64,000 nucleotides of DNA from Paracoccaceae bacterium (lineage in GTDB: Bacteria > Pseudomonadota > Alphaproteobacteria > Rhodobacterales > Rhodobacteraceae): contig JAFIEO010000022.1 in the NCBI GenBank assembly GCA_020832445.1, positions 1 to 64,000 of the forward strand, read 5' to 3'. The notes under the pieces were generated by a model, which was not told the DNA's origin, ran no database searches, and saw nothing but the letters and a program-made list of their open reading frames with translations. The position numbers and the translations under genes were made by a program. Each line of letters opens with the position of its first letter. The first letter of the stretch is position 1. Of this stretch, positions 8,081-38,142 are shown piece by piece.

Positions 8081-8100
8081 CATGGCGGATGTGGTTTGAA

Positions 8101-8297
8101 GGGGGCGTTCGTGCTGGGAATAAGCCCGCGCCAGCGGTGGGCCGGGGTCTGCCGATCCGGCGTTAGTGAAGTTCACTTTATGCAGGCTGCATACTCCGAC
8201 ACCAAAGGCTTGGCATGACATCAGCCAAATCGGCAGGCCGCGGGACGGCCAGACCTATGGCGCGGTGGGCTGCGCCCTTTGCTCCGCGCCTTGGGGG
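8101..8297 (-). repeat. Dispersed inverted-repeat element, copy A
   Basis: Reverse-complement copy of the elements at 20839-21048 and 37930-38142. Shared blocks include GCTCCGCGCCTTGGGG at the right end (8281-8296), TTCACTTTATGCAGGC (8172-8187), and CCGCGCCAGCGGTGGGCCG (8126-8144) facing CGGCCAGACCTATGGCGCGG (8246-8265). The last two are the inverted-repeat arms, degraded here by one inserted base and substitutions. The element fills the gap between bioY (plus) and the DUF1284 gene (minus), i.e. a convergent spacer. The rest of the 303-base gap holds only the bioY terminator. Confidence 0.85.
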
Positions 8298-8336
8298 AAC
8301 TTCTTCAGCCAGCCATCCGCATCCCTGCGCGCGACC

Positions 8337-19338: not shown

Positions 19339-20052
19339 TTGAAAGCCAAACTGATATTCGTGACAGGCGGTGCGTCTGGGCTGGGGCTGGAACTGGTGCG
19401 TGCAGCGCGCCGGAACGGGCATCGCGTGATATGCACGGGCCGCAGGGGCGCGCAGGATCTGCCCGTTGATTTTCCCGATATTCCCTATCTTTCCTGCGAT
19501 CTGGCGTCAGAGGATGGCGCGCATATGGCCGCCGACTGGGCGCTTCAGCATTCTGTCGGGCAGATTGGCTGTGCGCTTCTGAATGCCGCTGACGGATATT
19601 TCCGCCCGATGACGCTGGAAACGCCCGATGCAATCACGCGGGTTCTGTCGGTGAATCTGGAAGCCAACATGATCCTTGCGCACAGACTGTATCCGGCACT
19701 TGGGGGCGGACATCTGGCACTGATCGGTTCGGTGGCGCATAAGGGCGCTGCGGGAATGCCTGTTTATGCCGCCAGCAAGGCCGCATTGGACGGATTTGGC
19801 CGCGCATTGGCGGAAGAATGGCGCGGGCGCACTTATGTGCGTGTGTTGCACCCCGGCCCCACGGCAACAGGCATGGCCGAACGCGCGGGGCGCAGGCCCA
19901 ATGCGGCCGACAAGCTGTTTCTGGCCCCGCGCCCGATGGCGCAGGCCGTGCTGGATGCAGCGCTTGCCACCACAGGGCGTGACCGTCAGGTTATTTCCTA
20001 TGGCCGCGTGCTGTTCAGTCCGGCGCGCTGGCGGCGTAAGGGGGCCGCGTGA
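19339..20052 (+). CDS. Short-chain dehydrogenase/reductase (first of a pair)
   Basis: 237 residues, Rossmann fold. The NAD(P) loop TGGASGLG is at 9-16, with Arg35 and Arg36 after the second strand (ICTGRRG), which favour NADPH. The catalytic Ser is in IGSVAHKG and Tyr143/Lys147 in YAASK. The best start is a TTG at 19339, which directly precedes the first beta strand and has AGGG upstream. The substrate is unknown. It overlaps the second SDR gene by one base (TGATG), indicating coupled translation and possibly a heteromeric enzyme or consecutive steps. Confidence 0.88.
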   Translation: MKAKLIFVTGGASGLGLELVRAARRNGHRVICTGRRGAQDLPVDFPDIPYLSCDLASEDGAHMAADWALQHSVGQIGCALLNAADGYFRPMTLETPDAITRVLSVNLEANMILAHRLYPALGGGHLALIGSVAHKGAAGMPVYAASKAALDGFGRALAEEWRGRTYVRVLHPGPTATGMAERAGRRPNAADKLFLAPRPMAQAVLDAALATTGRDRQVISYGRVLFSPARWRRKGAA

Positions 20053-20792
20053 TGACGCGTGTGTTGATCACGGGGGGAGGCAGTGGGCTTGGACAGGCTT
20101 TGGCGGCGCAATGCCGCGCCCAAGCTGGCATGTCGGTCTGTGTGGTGGATATCGCGCCGCCCGCTGACGGGGCCAGCGACTGGATTACCCATGACATGGG
20201 CGACCCAGCCAATGACAGTTGGAGCGCGCTATCGGACACATTGGCAGCCAAAGGCCCGTTTGATCTGGTGATCCTGAACGCAGGGATAAATGCAACAGGC
20301 CGGTATGAGCAGGTGCCGGTTGCCGCGCATCTGGCAGTTGCGCGCGTCAATCTGCTGGGGCCGATGCGGCTTCTACATATACTGCTGCACAAAAACCTTC
20401 TCACATCAGGCGGGCGGGTGGTCTTCATCTCGTCGCTATCGGTGTTCACCGGCTATCCGGGGGCGGCAAGTTATGCTGCCAGCAAGGACGGGCTGGCCTG
20501 CCTTGCGCGGTCCCTGCGCAAACCCTTGCGCAAGGCCGGCAATATCCATGTGCAACTGGTGTGCCCCGGCCCGATGGACACCCCCCATGCCACGCGCCAC
20601 GCCCCCGAAGGCGCGCGTGCCGACCGGCGTATAGACCCAGCAAAAGTGGCGCGTATGATCCTTGCGCAACCTGGCAGGCGTTTTTTACTGGTGCCGGGGG
20701 CTGGCGCGCGCATGGCTGCGGCGGCAGGGCGGGCGTTCCCGCAGACAATGACGCGCATCATGGGCAAGGTCTTGTTCCGCAAGCTGACCTGA
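20052..20792 (+). CDS. Short-chain dehydrogenase/reductase (second of a pair)
   Basis: 246 residues from the ATG at 20052; a GTG one codon earlier is also possible. TGGGSGLG forms the nucleotide loop, NAGIN the structural motif, ISSLS the catalytic serine region, and Tyr141/Lys145 (YAASK) complete the active site. Asp33 after the second strand (VVDIAPP) points to NADH preference, unlike the upstream partner. The C-terminal third is Ala/Arg-rich with LLVPGAGARMAAAAGRAFP. Repeat copy B begins 46 bases after the stop. Confidence 0.88.
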   Translation: MTRVLITGGGSGLGQALAAQCRAQAGMSVCVVDIAPPADGASDWITHDMGDPANDSWSALSDTLAAKGPFDLVILNAGINATGRYEQVPVAAHLAVARVNLLGPMRLLHILLHKNLLTSGGRVVFISSLSVFTGYPGAASYAASKDGLACLARSLRKPLRKAGNIHVQLVCPGPMDTPHATRHAPEGARADRRIDPAKVARMILAQPGRRFLLVPGAGARMAAAAGRAFPQTMTRIMGKVLFRKLT

Positions 20793-20838
20793 GCACGCGG
20801 CATTTGCTTGGCGAATGGCCTGAAGCGGTCATTGAACC

Positions 20839-21048
20839 GCCCCAAGGCGCGGAGCAAAGGCCGCAGGCCGCCGCGCCATCGGTGGGCCGTCCCGCGGCCT
20901 GCCGATTTCGCTGATGGTGATTCAATCCTTTGAAGTCAGGAGTATGCCGCCTGCATAAAGTGAACTTCTCTGGCGTCGGACCGGCAGGCCCCGGCCCACC
21001 GATGGCGCGGGCTTTATCCAAGCACGAAGGGCAGCTTCAGGCCACCCG
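20839..21048 (+). repeat. Dispersed inverted-repeat element, copy B (best preserved)
   Basis: Copy with the most regular structure. The outer arms CCGCGCCATCGGTGGGCCG (20871-20889) and CGGCCCACCGATGGCGCGG (20992-21010) are perfect 19-bp inverted repeats. Inside, GGCCTGCCG (20896-20904) pairs with CGGCAGGCC (20982-20990), so a two-part stem of 28 bp encloses about 77 bases. Outside the stem, CCCCAAGGCGCGGAGC marks the left end and a segment with CTTCAGGCCA the right end, both shared with copy C. It fills the convergent spacer between the SDR pair and gltB. No transposase or direct-repeat target duplication is visible. Confidence 0.88.
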
Positions 21049-21083
21049 CAAAACATAGCGGCGCAAGGTTTCCCCTGCGCCGC
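21049..21083 (-). terminator. Probable terminator of gltD-gltB
   Basis: GCGGCGCA (21058-21065) and TGCGCCGC (21076-21083) form an 8-bp stem. On the minus strand it is followed by TATGTTTT, a modest T-tract, and it lies 26 bases after the gltB stop. Confidence 0.55.
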
Positions 21084-21108
21084 CGGATGTTGAACCACCA
21101 AGGCTGAA

Positions 21109-24100
21109 TTATTCCGCCGGAACCGCGTCCGCTTCATAGCTTAGCGGTTGGGGCAGATGCACCAGCATTTCCTTGGGGCAAATCTGCACGAAATGCGCGC
21201 GTTCGCGGTCCCAGTTGCGCAGGATTTCCAGCGCGCGCTGAGATTCCGTTTCTTTGGCATGCATTTCAATCAGGCCTTTCAGCTGATCTTCCCAATGATC
21301 CACCGTGACCGCGCAGGTCACCAGTGATTCCATGTTGATCAGGTCTGCCGCCTGCCCTTCGGGGTCATACAGATACGCCATGCCGCCCGTCATGCCTGCG
21401 CCGAAATTCGCGCCGATACTGCCAAGGATGACAGCCACGCCGCCGGTCATATATTCGCACCCGTTCGATCCACAGCCTTCGATCACGACTTTTGCACCGG
21501 AATTGCGCACGGCAAAACGTTCGCCGGCGCGGCCTGCGGCAAACAAATGGCCATCAGTTGCACCATAAAGCACCGTGTTCCCGATGATCGTGTTGTCATG
21601 CGCAATCAGGGGCGATGACATGCGCGGGCGCACCACGATCATACCGCCTGACAGGCCCTTGCCAACATAGTCATTGGCATCACCGAACACTTCGATCTTC
21701 AGGCCCGGCGCGGCAAATGCCCCCAACGACTGGCCCGCGCTGCCTGCCAGTTTGACAGTCAGGTGGTCGGGTTGCAGGTTGTTGCGCATGCCAAACCGCT
21801 TGACGATATGACTGGATGCACGCGTGCCGACCGTGCGGTGGGTGTTTTCCACCGCATAGGACAGTTGCATCTTTTCACCGTCTTCAAAGAAGCGCGCGGC
21901 ATCGCGGATGATTTCGGCATCCAGCGTGTCGGGCACAGCGTTGCGCGGCTTGTCACGGTCATAGCGGATATGCTCGGACCCGTCGACAGTCAGCAGCAGC
22001 GGGTTCAGGTCCAGATCATCCAGATGCGCCGCACCACGGCTGACCTGCGCCAGCAGATCGGCACGGCCAATCACTTCATCCATGGACCGCGCGCCAATGC
22101 TGGCCAGAATTTCACGCACTTCCTGCGCATAGAACGTGATCAGGTTCACCACCTTGTCGGCATTGCCGGTGAATTTGGCGCGCAGGTCTTCGTTTTGCGT
22201 GCAAACCCCCACAGGACAGGTGTTCGACTGGCACTGACGCACCATGATACAGCCCATGGCAATAAGTGCAGCGGTGCCAATGCCGTATTCTTCGGCCCCC
22301 ATCATGGCGGCCATGACAATATCGCGCCCTGTGCGCAGCCCGCCATCGGTGCGCAATGTCACCCGTTCGCGCAGCTTGTTCATGGCAAGCACCTGATGCG
22401 CTTCCGTCAGGCCCATTTCCCATGGCAGGCCCGCATATTTGATGGAGGTGGCAGGGCTGGCCCCCGTGCCGCCATTATGGCCGGAAATCAGGATGACATC
22501 GGCCTTGGCCTTGGCCACACCGGCCGCGATTGTGCCCACGCCCGATGATGCCACCAGTTTCACAGTGACCTTCACACGCGGGTTGATCTGTTTCAGGTCA
22601 TAGATCAGCTGCGCCAGATCCTCGATCGAGTAGATGTCATGGTGGGGGGGCGGTGAAATCAGTGTCACACCGGGGGTGGAGTGGCGCAGGCGGGCAATCA
22701 GCTTGGTCACCTTCATACCCGGAAGCTGGCCACCCTCGCCCGGTTTCGCCCCCTGTGCCACCTTGATTTCCAGTTCTTCGCAGGCGTTCAGGTATTCAGC
22801 AGTCACACCGAACCGGCCCGATGCCACCTGCTTGATCTTCGCGCAGGGGTTGTCGCCATTGGGCAGCGGGTGGGCATGTGCGGGATCTTCGCCCCCCTCG
22901 CCCGAGTCCGATTTTGCGCCAATGCGGTTCATGGCAATGTTCAGCGTCATATGCGCTTCAGGGCTAAGCGCCCCAAGCGACATGCCGGGGGTGACAAAAC
23001 GTTTGCGGATTGCCGTAATGCTTTCCACTTCTTCAATCGCAATCGCCTTGCCCAGTGGTTTGATGTCCAGCAAATCGCGCAGGTGAATGGGCGGGTTGGC
23101 CTGCATCGCGGCGCTGTATTGCTTCCACAATGCATAGCTGGACTGGTTGCAGGCATGTTGCAGCAGATGCATGGTCTGCGCTTCCCATGCGTGTTTTTCG
23201 CCCGAGCGCCGCGCCTTGTAAAACCCGCCAATGGGCAGAACATCCTGCCCGCCGCGCCAGCCCTTGGCGTGCACTTCTTCCAGTTTCATCTGGATGCCGT
23301 TCAGACCAATGCCGGAAATGCGGCTTTGCATTCCGGGGAAATATTCCGCACACAACGCGCGCGAAAGGCCCACAGCTTCAAAATTCAAACCACCGCGATA
23401 GGATGAGATCACGGAAATGCCCATCTTGGACATGATTTTCAGCAAGCCCGCATCAATCGCGGCACGGTAGCGGCGCATTGCATCGACAAGCGACCCTTCC
23501 ACCAACCCGCGATCAATGCGGTCGGCAATCGTTTCCTGCGCCAGATAGGCGTTGACGGTGGTCGCCCCGCAGCCAATCAGCACCGCGAAATAATGCGGAT
23601 CAATACATTCCGCCGACCGCACATTCAGCGAACAGAACGTGCGCAGCCCTTTGCGTGTCAACCAGCCATGCACTGCACTGGTCGCAAGAATCATGGGCAT
23701 GGCAACCTTGTCCGGCCCCTGATGCTCATCCGTCAGGACCAGATGGCCCGCACCGGAGCGCACGGCATCTTCGGCCTCGGCGCGGATACGCGCCAGACCA
23801 TCGCGCAGCGCATCGTCGCGCGCACCAATCGGGAATGTGCAGTCAATGAACGCGACCTGATCGCCGAATTCGCGCACCATCTCGTCGAATTCGCCATTCG
23901 CGACAAAGGGGCTTTCCAGAACCAGAATTTCGGTCTGGCTGCTGTCTTCGTCCAGCACATTGCGCAGGTTGCCAAAGCGGGTTTTCAACGACATCACACG
24001 GAATTCGCGCAAACTGTCGATGGCCGGGTTCGTCACCTGACTGAAATTCTGGCGGAAGTAATGCGACAGCGGACGATAAATCTGGCTAAGCACCGCTGAC

Positions 24101-25647
24101 GGCGTATCATCCCCCATCGAGGCGATCATTTCCTTGCCGTCTTCGGCCATCGGTGCCAGAATCTGCTCGACCTCTTCAATGCTGTAGCCTGCTGCCACCT
24201 GACGCTTGCGCAATTCGGCGCTGTCCAGTTGGCGGGTTTCCGGCACATCGCGCAGCTTGTCATTCAGATCGACAATCTTGTCGTTCCAGTCCCCGAACGG
24301 TTGCGCAGTGGACAGTTTGTTCTTGATTTCGGTGTCGTGATACAGCCTGCCTTGGACCATATCGACCGCGATCATCTGGCCCGGACCCAGCGCGCCCTTT
24401 TCGCGCACGCCAAGTTCGTCAACAACGACCATTCCCGCCTCGGACCCGGCAATCAGCAACCCGTCGCCTGTCACGACATAGCGCATGGGGCGCAGGCCGT
24501 TGCGGTCCAGACCAGCGCAGACCCAGCGCCCGTCAGTCATGGCCAGGGCTGCGGGGCCGTCCCACGGCTCCATCACGGAATTGCAATAGGAATACATGTC
24601 GCGCCACGCCTTGGGCATTTCCACGGCCTGTTTGGACCACGCTTCAGGCACCAGCATTGTCTTGGCCATGGGCGCGCTGCGGCCCGCACGCACCAGCACT
24701 TCGAACACGGAATCCAGTGCCGCCGAATCCGATGCGCCCGACGCCACGATCGGTTTGATATCTTCGGCCATGTCGCCGAATGCCGATGACGCCATGCGGA
24801 TTTCATGGCTTTTCAGCCAGTTCAGGTTGCCTTTCAGCGTGTTAATCTCGCCATTATGGGCCAACATGCGGAACGGCTGCGCCAACCACCATTGCGGGAA
24901 AGTGTTGGTCGAATAGCGCTGGTGATAGATGGCAAAGGCCGATTCAAAACGCTCATCCTTCAGGTCAGGATAGAATTCCGCAACCTGTTCGGCCAGCATC
25001 ATGCCCTTATAGATGATCGACCGGCACGACAGCGAACAGATGTAGAAACCCGCGATACCTGCGGCGGTGATCGCTTTTTCAATGCGGCGGCGGATGACAT
25101 ACAATTCGCGCTCGAATGTTTCTTCATCCGTGCCCTTGGAATTGCGGATCAGGATCTGCTCGATTTCAGGACGCGTTGCATTGGCCTTGTCGCCCAGCAC
25201 GCTGACGGTGACCGGCACATGGCGCCAACCGTAAATCGCGTAACCCATGCGCAAAACTTCGGTTTCGACAATCGTGCGGGACCGTTCCTGTGCTGCAAAA
25301 TCCGTGCGCGGCAAGAACACTTGCCCCACGGCCACCAACTGGTCAACCATGGGTTCATGACCCGTGCGACGGATCTTGTCATAGAAGAAATTGACGGGGA
25401 TCTGCACATGGATGCCCGCGCCATCGCCTGTCTTGCCGTCTGCATCAACCGCGCCGCGGTGCCAGATGGCCTTCAGTGCATCAATGCCGTGTTCAACCAC
25501 CTTGCGCGATGGTTTGCCGTCCAGCGACACCACCAGCCCCACCCCGCAGGATGAATGTTCATCTTCGGGTTTATACAGGCCATGTTCAGCGACAAAGGCA
25601 CGGCGGGCTTCTTCACGGGCGGCCCATGCGTCATCATATTGCGTCAT
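21109..25647 (-). CDS. gltB: Glutamate synthase (NADPH) large subunit
   Basis: 1512 residues, full length. The N-terminal glutaminase domain starts at Cys34 (CGVGLVV) after a propeptide. The central and FMN-binding synthase domains follow, with the 3Fe-4S cysteine cluster in RQCQSNTCPVGVCTQ and the GXGXG-rich beta-helix domain at the C-terminus (GYG/GAG-like repeats around GGMIVVRPR, then GGVAVILGSIGANFGAGMTGG). With GltD it converts glutamine and 2-oxoglutarate to two glutamates, the GOGAT half of ammonium assimilation. It lies 26 bases after gltD on the same strand and ends at a terminator next to repeat copy B. Confidence 0.98.
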   Translation of the reverse strand: MTQYDDAWAAREEARRAFVAEHGLYKPEDEHSSCGVGLVVSLDGKPSRKVVEHGIDALKAIWHRGAVDADGKTGDGAGIHVQIPVNFFYDKIRRTGHEPMVDQLVAVGQVFLPRTDFAAQERSRTIVETEVLRMGYAIYGWRHVPVTVSVLGDKANATRPEIEQILIRNSKGTDEETFERELYVIRRRIEKAITAAGIAGFYICSLSCRSIIYKGMMLAEQVAEFYPDLKDERFESAFAIYHQRYSTNTFPQWWLAQPFRMLAHNGEINTLKGNLNWLKSHEIRMASSAFGDMAEDIKPIVASGASDSAALDSVFEVLVRAGRSAPMAKTMLVPEAWSKQAVEMPKAWRDMYSYCNSVMEPWDGPAALAMTDGRWVCAGLDRNGLRPMRYVVTGDGLLIAGSEAGMVVVDELGVREKGALGPGQMIAVDMVQGRLYHDTEIKNKLSTAQPFGDWNDKIVDLNDKLRDVPETRQLDSAELRKRQVAAGYSIEEVEQILAPMAEDGKEMIASMGDDTPSAVLSQIYRPLSHYFRQNFSQVTNPAIDSLREFRVMSLKTRFGNLRNVLDEDSSQTEILVLESPFVANGEFDEMVREFGDQVAFIDCTFPIGARDDALRDGLARIRAEAEDAVRSGAGHLVLTDEHQGPDKVAMPMILATSAVHGWLTRKGLRTFCSLNVRSAECIDPHYFAVLIGCGATTVNAYLAQETIADRIDRGLVEGSLVDAMRRYRAAIDAGLLKIMSKMGISVISSYRGGLNFEAVGLSRALCAEYFPGMQSRISGIGLNGIQMKLEEVHAKGWRGGQDVLPIGGFYKARRSGEKHAWEAQTMHLLQHACNQSSYALWKQYSAAMQANPPIHLRDLLDIKPLGKAIAIEEVESITAIRKRFVTPGMSLGALSPEAHMTLNIAMNRIGAKSDSGEGGEDPAHAHPLPNGDNPCAKIKQVASGRFGVTAEYLNACEELEIKVAQGAKPGEGGQLPGMKVTKLIARLRHSTPGVTLISPPPHHDIYSIEDLAQLIYDLKQINPRVKVTVKLVASSGVGTIAAGVAKAKADVILISGHNGGTGASPATSIKYAGLPWEMGLTEAHQVLAMNKLRERVTLRTDGGLRTGRDIVMAAMMGAEEYGIGTAALIAMGCIMVRQCQSNTCPVGVCTQNEDLRAKFTGNADKVVNLITFYAQEVREILASIGARSMDEVIGRADLLAQVSRGAAHLDDLDLNPLLLTVDGSEHIRYDRDKPRNAVPDTLDAEIIRDAARFFEDGEKMQLSYAVENTHRTVGTRASSHIVKRFGMRNNLQPDHLTVKLAGSAGQSLGAFAAPGLKIEVFGDANDYVGKGLSGGMIVVRPRMSSPLIAHDNTIIGNTVLYGATDGHLFAAGRAGERFAVRNSGAKVVIEGCGSNGCEYMTGGVAVILGSIGANFGAGMTGGMAYLYDPEGQAADLINMESLVTCAVTVDHWEDQLKGLIEMHAKETESQRALEILRNWDRERAHFVQICPKEMLVHLPQPLSYEADAVPAE

Positions 25648-37849: not shown

Positions 37850-37929
37850 GCTGGGGGCGTTGTCGTAGTGTCATGCCCTGATGCGCTGGCAAGGCTGTTT
37901 AATTCTGGCCTTTTGCAGACATCGGGAAA

Positions 37930-38142
37930 GCCCCAAGGCGCGGAGCAAAGGCCGAAGGCCGCCGCGCCATCGGCGGGCCGTCCCGCGGCCTGCGGATTTT
38001 GCTGATGGCGGGCCAAGCCTTTGAAGTAAGGATACGCAGCTTGCATAAACTGCATTCCCATAATGTCGGATCGGCAGACCCCGGCCCACCGATGGCGCGG
38101 GCTTAGTCCCCGCGCGAATGACCGCTTCAGGCCAGCACCGCC
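37930..38142 (+). repeat. Dispersed inverted-repeat element, copy C
   Basis: Same orientation as copy B. It starts with GCCCCAAGGCGCGGAGC. The arms CCGCGCCATCGGCGGGCCG (37962-37980) and CGGCCCACCGATGGCGCGG (38082-38100) pair with a single mismatch; the inner 9-bp stem of copy B is degraded. The right end shares CTTCAGGCCA with copy B. It occupies the convergent spacer between the amidohydrolase gene and the antiporter gene, which is 337 bases long and otherwise empty. Confidence 0.87.

Follow-up and report, generated by a model that had tools for sequence, protein, structure and literature searches.

A dispersed palindromic repeat of the Rhodobacteraceae at gene 3' ends, with stable sites and probably copied-over contents

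A palindromic unit between two convergent genes

What is the long, stem-forming sequence that lies between two convergent genes of a Paracoccaceae bacterium, and how do its many copies stay alike? In the window, by which we mean the whole stretch of 64,000 nucleotides analyzed here, it is bordered on the left by a short-chain dehydrogenase gene (positions 20049 to 20792, plus strand; PF00106) and on the right by the gene for the glutamate synthase large subunit (21109 to 25647, minus strand; PF00310, PF01645, PF04898, and PF01493), both as called by our own codon-usage caller. An earlier note on this DNA had placed a dispersed element at 20839 to 21048, between convergent genes and with no associated transposase. 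The convergence is confirmed, and no transposase gene adjoins the copy, the dehydrogenase and the synthase being its neighbors. The location also held, but the extent did not: the repeat unit spans 20816 to 21044 on the plus strand (229 bp; TGGCCTGAAGC ... GCTTCAGGCCA), and 23 bases on the left had been missed. We set the edges where near-identical copies in unrelated flanks cease to match, around the TGGCC and GGCCA with which the unit begins and ends; the nhmmer match of the window copy covers 20816 to 21043, i.e., positions 1 to 228 of the 229-position model.

In the 30-copy alignment from the window genome, the order of parts from the outside in is terminal arms, a variable stretch, GGCGCGG, a side hairpin (GGSCGNAGSCC), a 19-bp arm, a short spacer, a 9-bp stem, and a 77-base block. 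The right terminal arm, GCTTCAGGCCA (21034 to 21044), is the reverse complement of the left one, TGGCCTGAAGC (20816 to 20826), which reads TGGCCTTTTGC in other copies; the arms of one copy are often mismatched (TTT with TTC in 11 of 87 and GAA with AAA in 7 of 87). Such terminal inverted repeats are a feature of MITEs. The GGCGCGG motif (20846 to 20852), nearly invariant in the 57-copy genus alignment, could pair with CCGCGCC (20871 to 20877) instead of leaving it to the far arm, an alternative fold suggested by complementarity in a segment that hardly varies. The side hairpin, GGCCGCAGGCC (20859 to 20869), has a C-GNA-G loop, and one of its pairs swaps between C-G and G-C among copies (41 CG and 39 GC among 87; 28 and 23 in the 57-copy genus set). 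The middle base of this loop is variable in most copies, which otherwise retain the C-GNA-G form; loops of this type are unusually stable in DNA.

Further inward, the main 19-bp arms (20871 to 20889 and 20992 to 21010) are perfectly complementary, and an inner 9-bp stem (20896 to 20904 with 20982 to 20990) encloses 77 bases (20905 to 20981), exactly as had been described; the main 5' arm and the 5' side of the inner stem show the compensatory changes detailed below. Conservation of the enclosed block had also been claimed and holds; its ATAAA (20955 to 20959) recurs in all 57 genus copies aligned and in 31 of 32 rows of a family-wide alignment. On folding of 20810 to 21055, each strand beats 200 of 200 dinucleotide shuffles (z = -5.46 and -5.87). 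In some copies about 42 weakly conserved bases per side lie beyond the unit. Nested insertion of the unit into outer repeats was considered and rejected: their arms, A and B, gave 19 and 8 matches, one of which lacks a copy nearby (contig C33, position 28200) and another of which adjoins a copy at C33:48295, and A and B swap sides of the core between copies.

Copy number and spread among genomes

The element is dispersed, as had been proposed: the fetched DNA of the 4.08-Mb window genome holds 103 distinct places that match the 30-copy profile at an E value of ≤1e-3, 84 of them near full length (≥200 of the 229 positions), while a few shorter places are contig-end pieces and could represent a single copy split in two. 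Two further places in contiguous stretches, C33:48295 and the partial C33:3346, come on top of the 103. Whole-genome BLAST returned at least 40 copies, and the 14-mer GGCAGNCCCCGGCC of the inner side has 100 exact genome matches versus 0 for a control pattern, at least one of these 100 (C31:12130, inside a coding ORF and free of a profile match) not being an element. The 12 places found in 463 kb of contiguous DNA (the window, contig C33, and 120 kb of contig C18, picked in the knowledge that C33 and the window carry copies) suggest about 105 per genome. The genome is a draft of 99 contigs, several of which break inside a copy (C6, C15, C25, C50, C67, C68, C74, C91, C95, and C96), and the count is therefore uncertain by a few. 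The copy between the convergent genes had been called the best preserved; it does have the top profile score (240.7 bits), but it was itself in the seed alignment. The window contains two more copies by profile match, at 8093 to 8302 (minus strand) and 37906 to 38133 (plus strand), both in the same direction in the nearest complete genome, that of Roseinatronobacter sp. S2, with cores 98.6% and 82.6% identical, respectively.

Searches of the genus and of the Rhodobacteraceae returned further copies widely. The DNA query matched in 22 of 37 genomes of the genus. For a covariance model we drew 60 copies (10 from the window genome, 2 from S2, and up to 6 per other species), 57 of which entered the genus alignment and the model; this structure model matched in 80 of 198 family genomes (79 of the 197 genera), at least 14 times in many of them. 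A class-wide draw gave matches in only 2 of 289 genomes, both of the same family and one of them the window genome. No match was obtained in phages, nor any exact match of the one pattern sought in viral contigs. No Rfam family matches at the gathering cutoff: the window yields only 3 tRNAs, and the region from 20780 to 21120 gave 3 matches with E values of up to 5, all far below gathering. Among the matches listed in a search of the open-licence literature, we found no published description of the repeat family. It represents a large structured repeat family in a well-studied bacterial family for which no Rfam model was found. The gltB-centered loci of 80 named relatives (1.52 Mb) contain no match by the own-genome profile (E ≤ 1) or by the genus structure model (E ≤ 0.001); synteny with these relatives ends at gltB, so that no empty site could be obtained from them.

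Annotated plasmids also carry the element. Nine of 95 matching records were opened, four of which represent the same site, leaving six distinct sites, all full-length by the structure model. By the incomplete gene tables of these records, five of the six are convergent (one each in Roseinatronobacter S2 and Salipiger and three in Pseudosulfitobacter), and the sixth lies behind ilvD, in line with the placement described below from our own gene calls. On one Pseudosulfitobacter plasmid (NZ_CP054608.1; locus L362), the copy sits between a gene for a GntR regulator and a RelE/RelB-type toxin-antitoxin pair.

Preference for gene 3' ends

The copies show a distinct relationship to genes. By our own codon-usage gene calls, no copy among the 103 reaches more than 60 bp into a gene, and among the 85 with both neighbors called, the gap is convergent in 65, tandem in 19, and divergent in 1; the adjoining gene ends comprise 149 3' ends (median distance, 43 bp) and 21 5' ends (median, 142 bp). 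Within the 463-kb contiguous sample, the element occupies 9 of 50 convergent gaps, 3 of 276 tandem gaps, and none of 50 divergent gaps (Fisher's P = 1e-6). Other species of the genus have 38 convergent, 21 tandem, and 1 divergent among 60 of 63 loci, one neighbor being missing at the other 3, and the convergent share is lower outside the genus (11 of 26, with 14 tandem and 1 divergent, out of 28 loci). An extragenic position combined with a preference for 3' ends and convergent gaps is thus shared with REP/BIME sequences. Within tandem gaps the direction of the element is even, with 26 in total the same as that of the genes and 28 opposite.

Two simple accounts of this placement were rejected. 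Targeting of stop codons through TAG or CTAG finds no counterpart in stop usage, which near elements (TGA, 83; TAG, 44; TAA, 35) does not differ from that of the convergent background (51, 28, and 21). Substitution for a terminator likewise drew no clear signal from the counts of terminator-like sites at occupied and unoccupied ends: between stop and element they number 29 of 156, about equal to the 38 of 246 at length-matched unoccupied ends, and within 150 nucleotides, element included, 91 of 156 versus 34 of 82.

A more elaborate possibility is that of a functional bidirectional hairpin, an end or stabilizer of the transcripts of both convergent genes that is under selection at every site. 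Its position at 3' ends and the near equality of directions in tandem gaps are in keeping with this, as is the shortage of wobble pairs described below, which is to be expected if both strands must fold; however, it is present in only 9 of 50 convergent gaps, the terminator signal is not clear, and the occurrence of 99%-identical cores at unrelated sites (see below) is left unexplained. We regard it as a serious contender, although on balance somewhat improbable. It is partly compatible with the overwriting of copies by one another that we favor below; as a rival, it denies such overwriting and credits their likeness to ancestry and selection.

Conservation of the fold and the question of strand

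The proposed stem was tested for compensatory changes in the genus and family alignments. Of 32 pairs in the former, 11 have changed on both sides, with 99 such cells versus 38.7 ± 3.7 in shuffles, and controls in which the pairing was slid reach a paired share of at most 46%; further pair types show no excess over shuffles (23 versus 23.1). The 5' arm can also fold on itself, with 95.7% of cells paired as against 73.7% for the 3' arm alone; as this local fold too is supported, two folds compete. The 32 rows of the family alignment stem from 30 genomes, which represent 29 genera, and from two plasmid records (33 or 32 rows were used out of 57 matches, the rest being opposite-strand or second matches). 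Across its 30 pairs it has 892 Watson-Crick, 6 G-U, 12 A-C, and 29 other cells, and 15 of the 30 pairs occur as two or more Watson-Crick types. The long two-part stem is therefore a hairpin-forming doublet with compensatory changes, as in REPINs.

Wobble pairs make up only 0.7% in the element versus 9.3% in the stems of 67 tRNAs from relatives. This shortage fits a structure acting at the DNA level or in RNA of both strands and argues against RNA of one strand. The excess of A-C over G-T points the other way: it is 55 to 6 and 61 to 1 in the long stems of the genus alignment and 38 to 7 in the family alignment (32 pairs and 33 rows), or 12 to 6 (32 rows) without two doubtful pairs, and it could mean selection on a minus-strand RNA. 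The suggestion that the hairpin acts either in DNA or in RNA transcribed from either gene may accordingly be narrowed in part; the near absence of wobble and the even directions in tandem gaps lean toward DNA or RNA of both strands.

The neighboring idea of a gene or cis-regulator working as RNA of a single strand can appeal to the conserved fold and loop ATAAA and to the A-C excess in the genus, which would be G-U on the minus strand. Nevertheless, neither an ordinary share of G-U pairs nor a single transcribed direction was found: wobble stands at 0.7%, tandem gaps show no preference of direction, 10 of 25 orthologous sites are inverted (see below), and no Rfam family matches at the gathering cutoff. 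We therefore rate it as very unlikely.

Stable sites with exchanged contents

We compared the window genome with that of Roseinatronobacter sp. S2 (our G033; the positions of elements on its replicon C3 agree with those on NZ_CP121115.1). Twenty-five of the 103 copies have both flanks in the S2 DNA at hand, which is part of that genome, and all 25 sites are occupied in S2, 15 in the same direction and 10 inverted. Four long stretches account for 20 of these sites (7 of the 20 inverted); since the stretches were fetched by synteny, their occupancy was not selected by element matches. The same four S2 stretches contain 26 elements, some partial, six of them without a paired copy in the window genome, so sites do differ. 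Similarly, a copy on contig C54 of another element-rich genome, G001, is absent from both the window genome and S2 (gap of 43 bp versus 283), which indicates that gains or losses of sites exist, and one of the six unpaired S2 elements, at 1970812, has no copy in G001, the window genome showing only one flank there.

The sites are stable, and their contents are exchanged, in either direction. At the 25 sites the coding flanks are identical to those of S2 at 0.955 and 0.953, and the intergenic DNA outside the unit at 0.907 (same direction) and 0.891 (inverted), versus 0.872 and 0.811, respectively, for the cores; random core pairs within the window genome have a mean identity of 0.835 (SD, 0.032). 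Intergenic identity exceeds that of the core at 18 of the 25 sites but not at the other 7, where fast drift rather than replacement is possible. The best S2 match of a copy is its ortholog at only 5 of 25 sites. Just three cores attain an identity of ≥0.96 (range, 0.97 to 0.99), all unflipped, and the 10 inverted cores all remain at 0.88 or lower. The window copy itself is inverted in S2, with a core identity of 0.85 or 0.82 by two alignments, and the adjoining intergenic DNA agrees at 83 of 87 bases. Conversely, the copies at C33:211864 and C20:196576 have cores 99.1% identical in unrelated flanks. Inversion was seen in 6 of 11 comparisons of other assemblies, which are drafts and not all independent, as several share a species; at one site shared by four species, the copy of G027 points the opposite way from those of G003, G004, and G026. 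This exchange and inversion at shared sites, like the family-wide spread and the preference for gene 3' ends, goes beyond what the earlier note had described.

Inversion at 10 of 25 sites speaks for a site-specific switch flipping in place. A pure flip, however, keeps the contents, and the inverted cores all stay at or below 0.88 while three unflipped ones reach 0.97 to 0.99; we consider such a switch scarcely credible. An equally slim chance attaches to the artifact of short-read misassembly having shuffled the cores, for which one could cite the 99-contig state of the window genome and the contigs that end inside a copy. Had the cores merely been shuffled, most of those in S2 should still have a close partner in the window genome, yet a partner at 0.95 among its 97 cores exists for only 3 of 31 S2 cores and for 5 of 25 loops, which disfavors such a permutation. 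Inversions also separate other assemblies (drafts as well), and the S2 assembly combines Nanopore and Illumina reads (PMC10508151).

A third reading holds that the element is a MITE moved by a transposase acting in trans, the differing contents reflecting successive insertions and losses at preferred targets near gene ends. The resemblance to MITEs pointed out previously is real, in that the unit ends in TGGCC and GGCCA with inverted terminal arms, and presence or absence between species is documented by the G001 copy on C54 and by S2 1970812, empty in G001. Beyond this resemblance, no partner transposase was identified in a search for Y1_Tnp, and no target duplication could be resolved at empty sites, the species pairs being too diverged at the junction. 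Moreover, repeated loss and reinsertion should leave some sites empty, and there is none among the 25 traced in S2. We hold this reading to be rather unlikely. For copy-over, in turn, no donor-recipient event was caught directly, and the outcome would look alike had an insertion newly landed in an older copy or on top of it. In four Pseudosulfitobacter plasmid records compared within the species, the flanking genes and direction are the same, these records being near-clonal.

Overwriting of copies and comparison with known repeats

We believe that the element is probably a palindromic DNA repeat of the Rhodobacteraceae, of the REP/BIME/MITE type, whose copies stay similar through copy-over between sites and which is tolerated or used at gene ends. 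Under this explanation, ectopic recombination (gene conversion) would replace one copy with the sequence of another, and could do so in both orientations, the two ends being inverted repeats and the unit nearly symmetrical. During mending, homology would run out in the terminal arms, which accounts for the edges of the unit, and new sites would arise more rarely than copy-over. The break that sets the process off may be caused by the cruciform or hairpin; cutting of hairpins, familiar from SbcCD, is our guess for the trigger. That a palindrome overwrites its own kind in this manner, a hairpin nuclease cutting it and another copy mending it so that some 100 sites share one drifting pool, is a speculative and, in our estimate, doubtful extension; if true, it would amount to a bacterial gene-conversion drive without an enzyme of its own. 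As for a role at gene ends, the hairpin might, in RNA of either strand, cap or end the transcripts of both neighbors, or the element may merely be tolerated there; tolerance, a both-strand transcript cap, and REP-like management of supercoils all fit.

If the exchange is real, the family offers a natural test bed for gene conversion keeping extragenic palindromes alike, including a cultured, fully sequenced relative in Roseinatronobacter sp. S2, and also a warning that intergenic DNA at gene ends may have a history different from that of its flanks. The idea has a precedent in a 1988 review by Higgins and others, whose title reportedly asks "evolution by gene conversion?" The enterobacterial REP/BIME sequences are likewise high-copy-number palindromic extragenic repeats, often in convergent gaps. 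REPs are described as 20 to 40 bp long (PMC3733652), frequent between convergent genes, bound by gyrase, IHF, and Pol I, and discussed in connection with supercoil management (PMC1525189). Unlike them, the present unit measures 229 bp, has a 77-base loop with ATAAA and a C-GNA-G side hairpin, and belongs to another lineage.

REPINs, too, are portrayed (PMC3116915) as miniature hairpin-forming doublets with compensatory changes and many copies, which our element resembles, but they are moved by a RAYT, and none over the cutoff was found in the window genome. A RAYT as the mover was rejected: Y1_Tnp (PF01797) exceeds the cutoff neither in the window genome nor in G001, S2, G028, and G034, which are rich in elements, S2 having a 30-position fragment match just below it (22.6 versus 23 bits). 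Of the 37 genomes of the genus, four have a Y1_Tnp match at E ≤ 1e-3, which passes the cutoff in G006 and G021 and falls short of it in G013 and S2; G006 and G021 have no element match by the DNA query. The data thus do not support a RAYT transposase, nor do they support a one-strand RNA gene or a simple invertible switch.

MITEs, ERIC, and the Brucella Bru-RS are similar repeats, sharing with the present one inverted terminal arms, an intergenic location, and the lack of coding capacity; it differs from them in the exchange of contents at stable sites and in having no resolvable target duplication or known mover. In its behavior the unit resembles a REP/BIME, and it looks like a MITE, but it is longer, from another lineage, and not accompanied by a RAYT over the cutoff. 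The small hairpin-flanked inversions of chloroplast intergenic DNA are reportedly alike in that segments between inverted arms occur in either direction among related species. In chloroplasts the loop flips in place, whereas here the whole unit is replaced, outer arms included.

Deleted, clustered, and composite copies

Several copies depart from the usual arrangement. One in the window genome (L097, at about 32.7 kb of contig C36) has lost its middle, profile positions 4 to 78 being joined to 168 to 228. Copies also cluster in twos or threes, about 1.5 kb or less apart, at L042 and L254 (both in G034), L025 (contig C79 of the window genome), L299, and L361, the last having two oppositely directed copies inside one convergent gap. 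Seven copies in the window genome (L132, L096, L019, L114, L071, L092, and L106) have beside them another dispersed repeat, some 105 bp in length (GTTAGAGCATGTCTCGTGAATGCGAAT...), the examples of which are 84 to 100% identical to one another.
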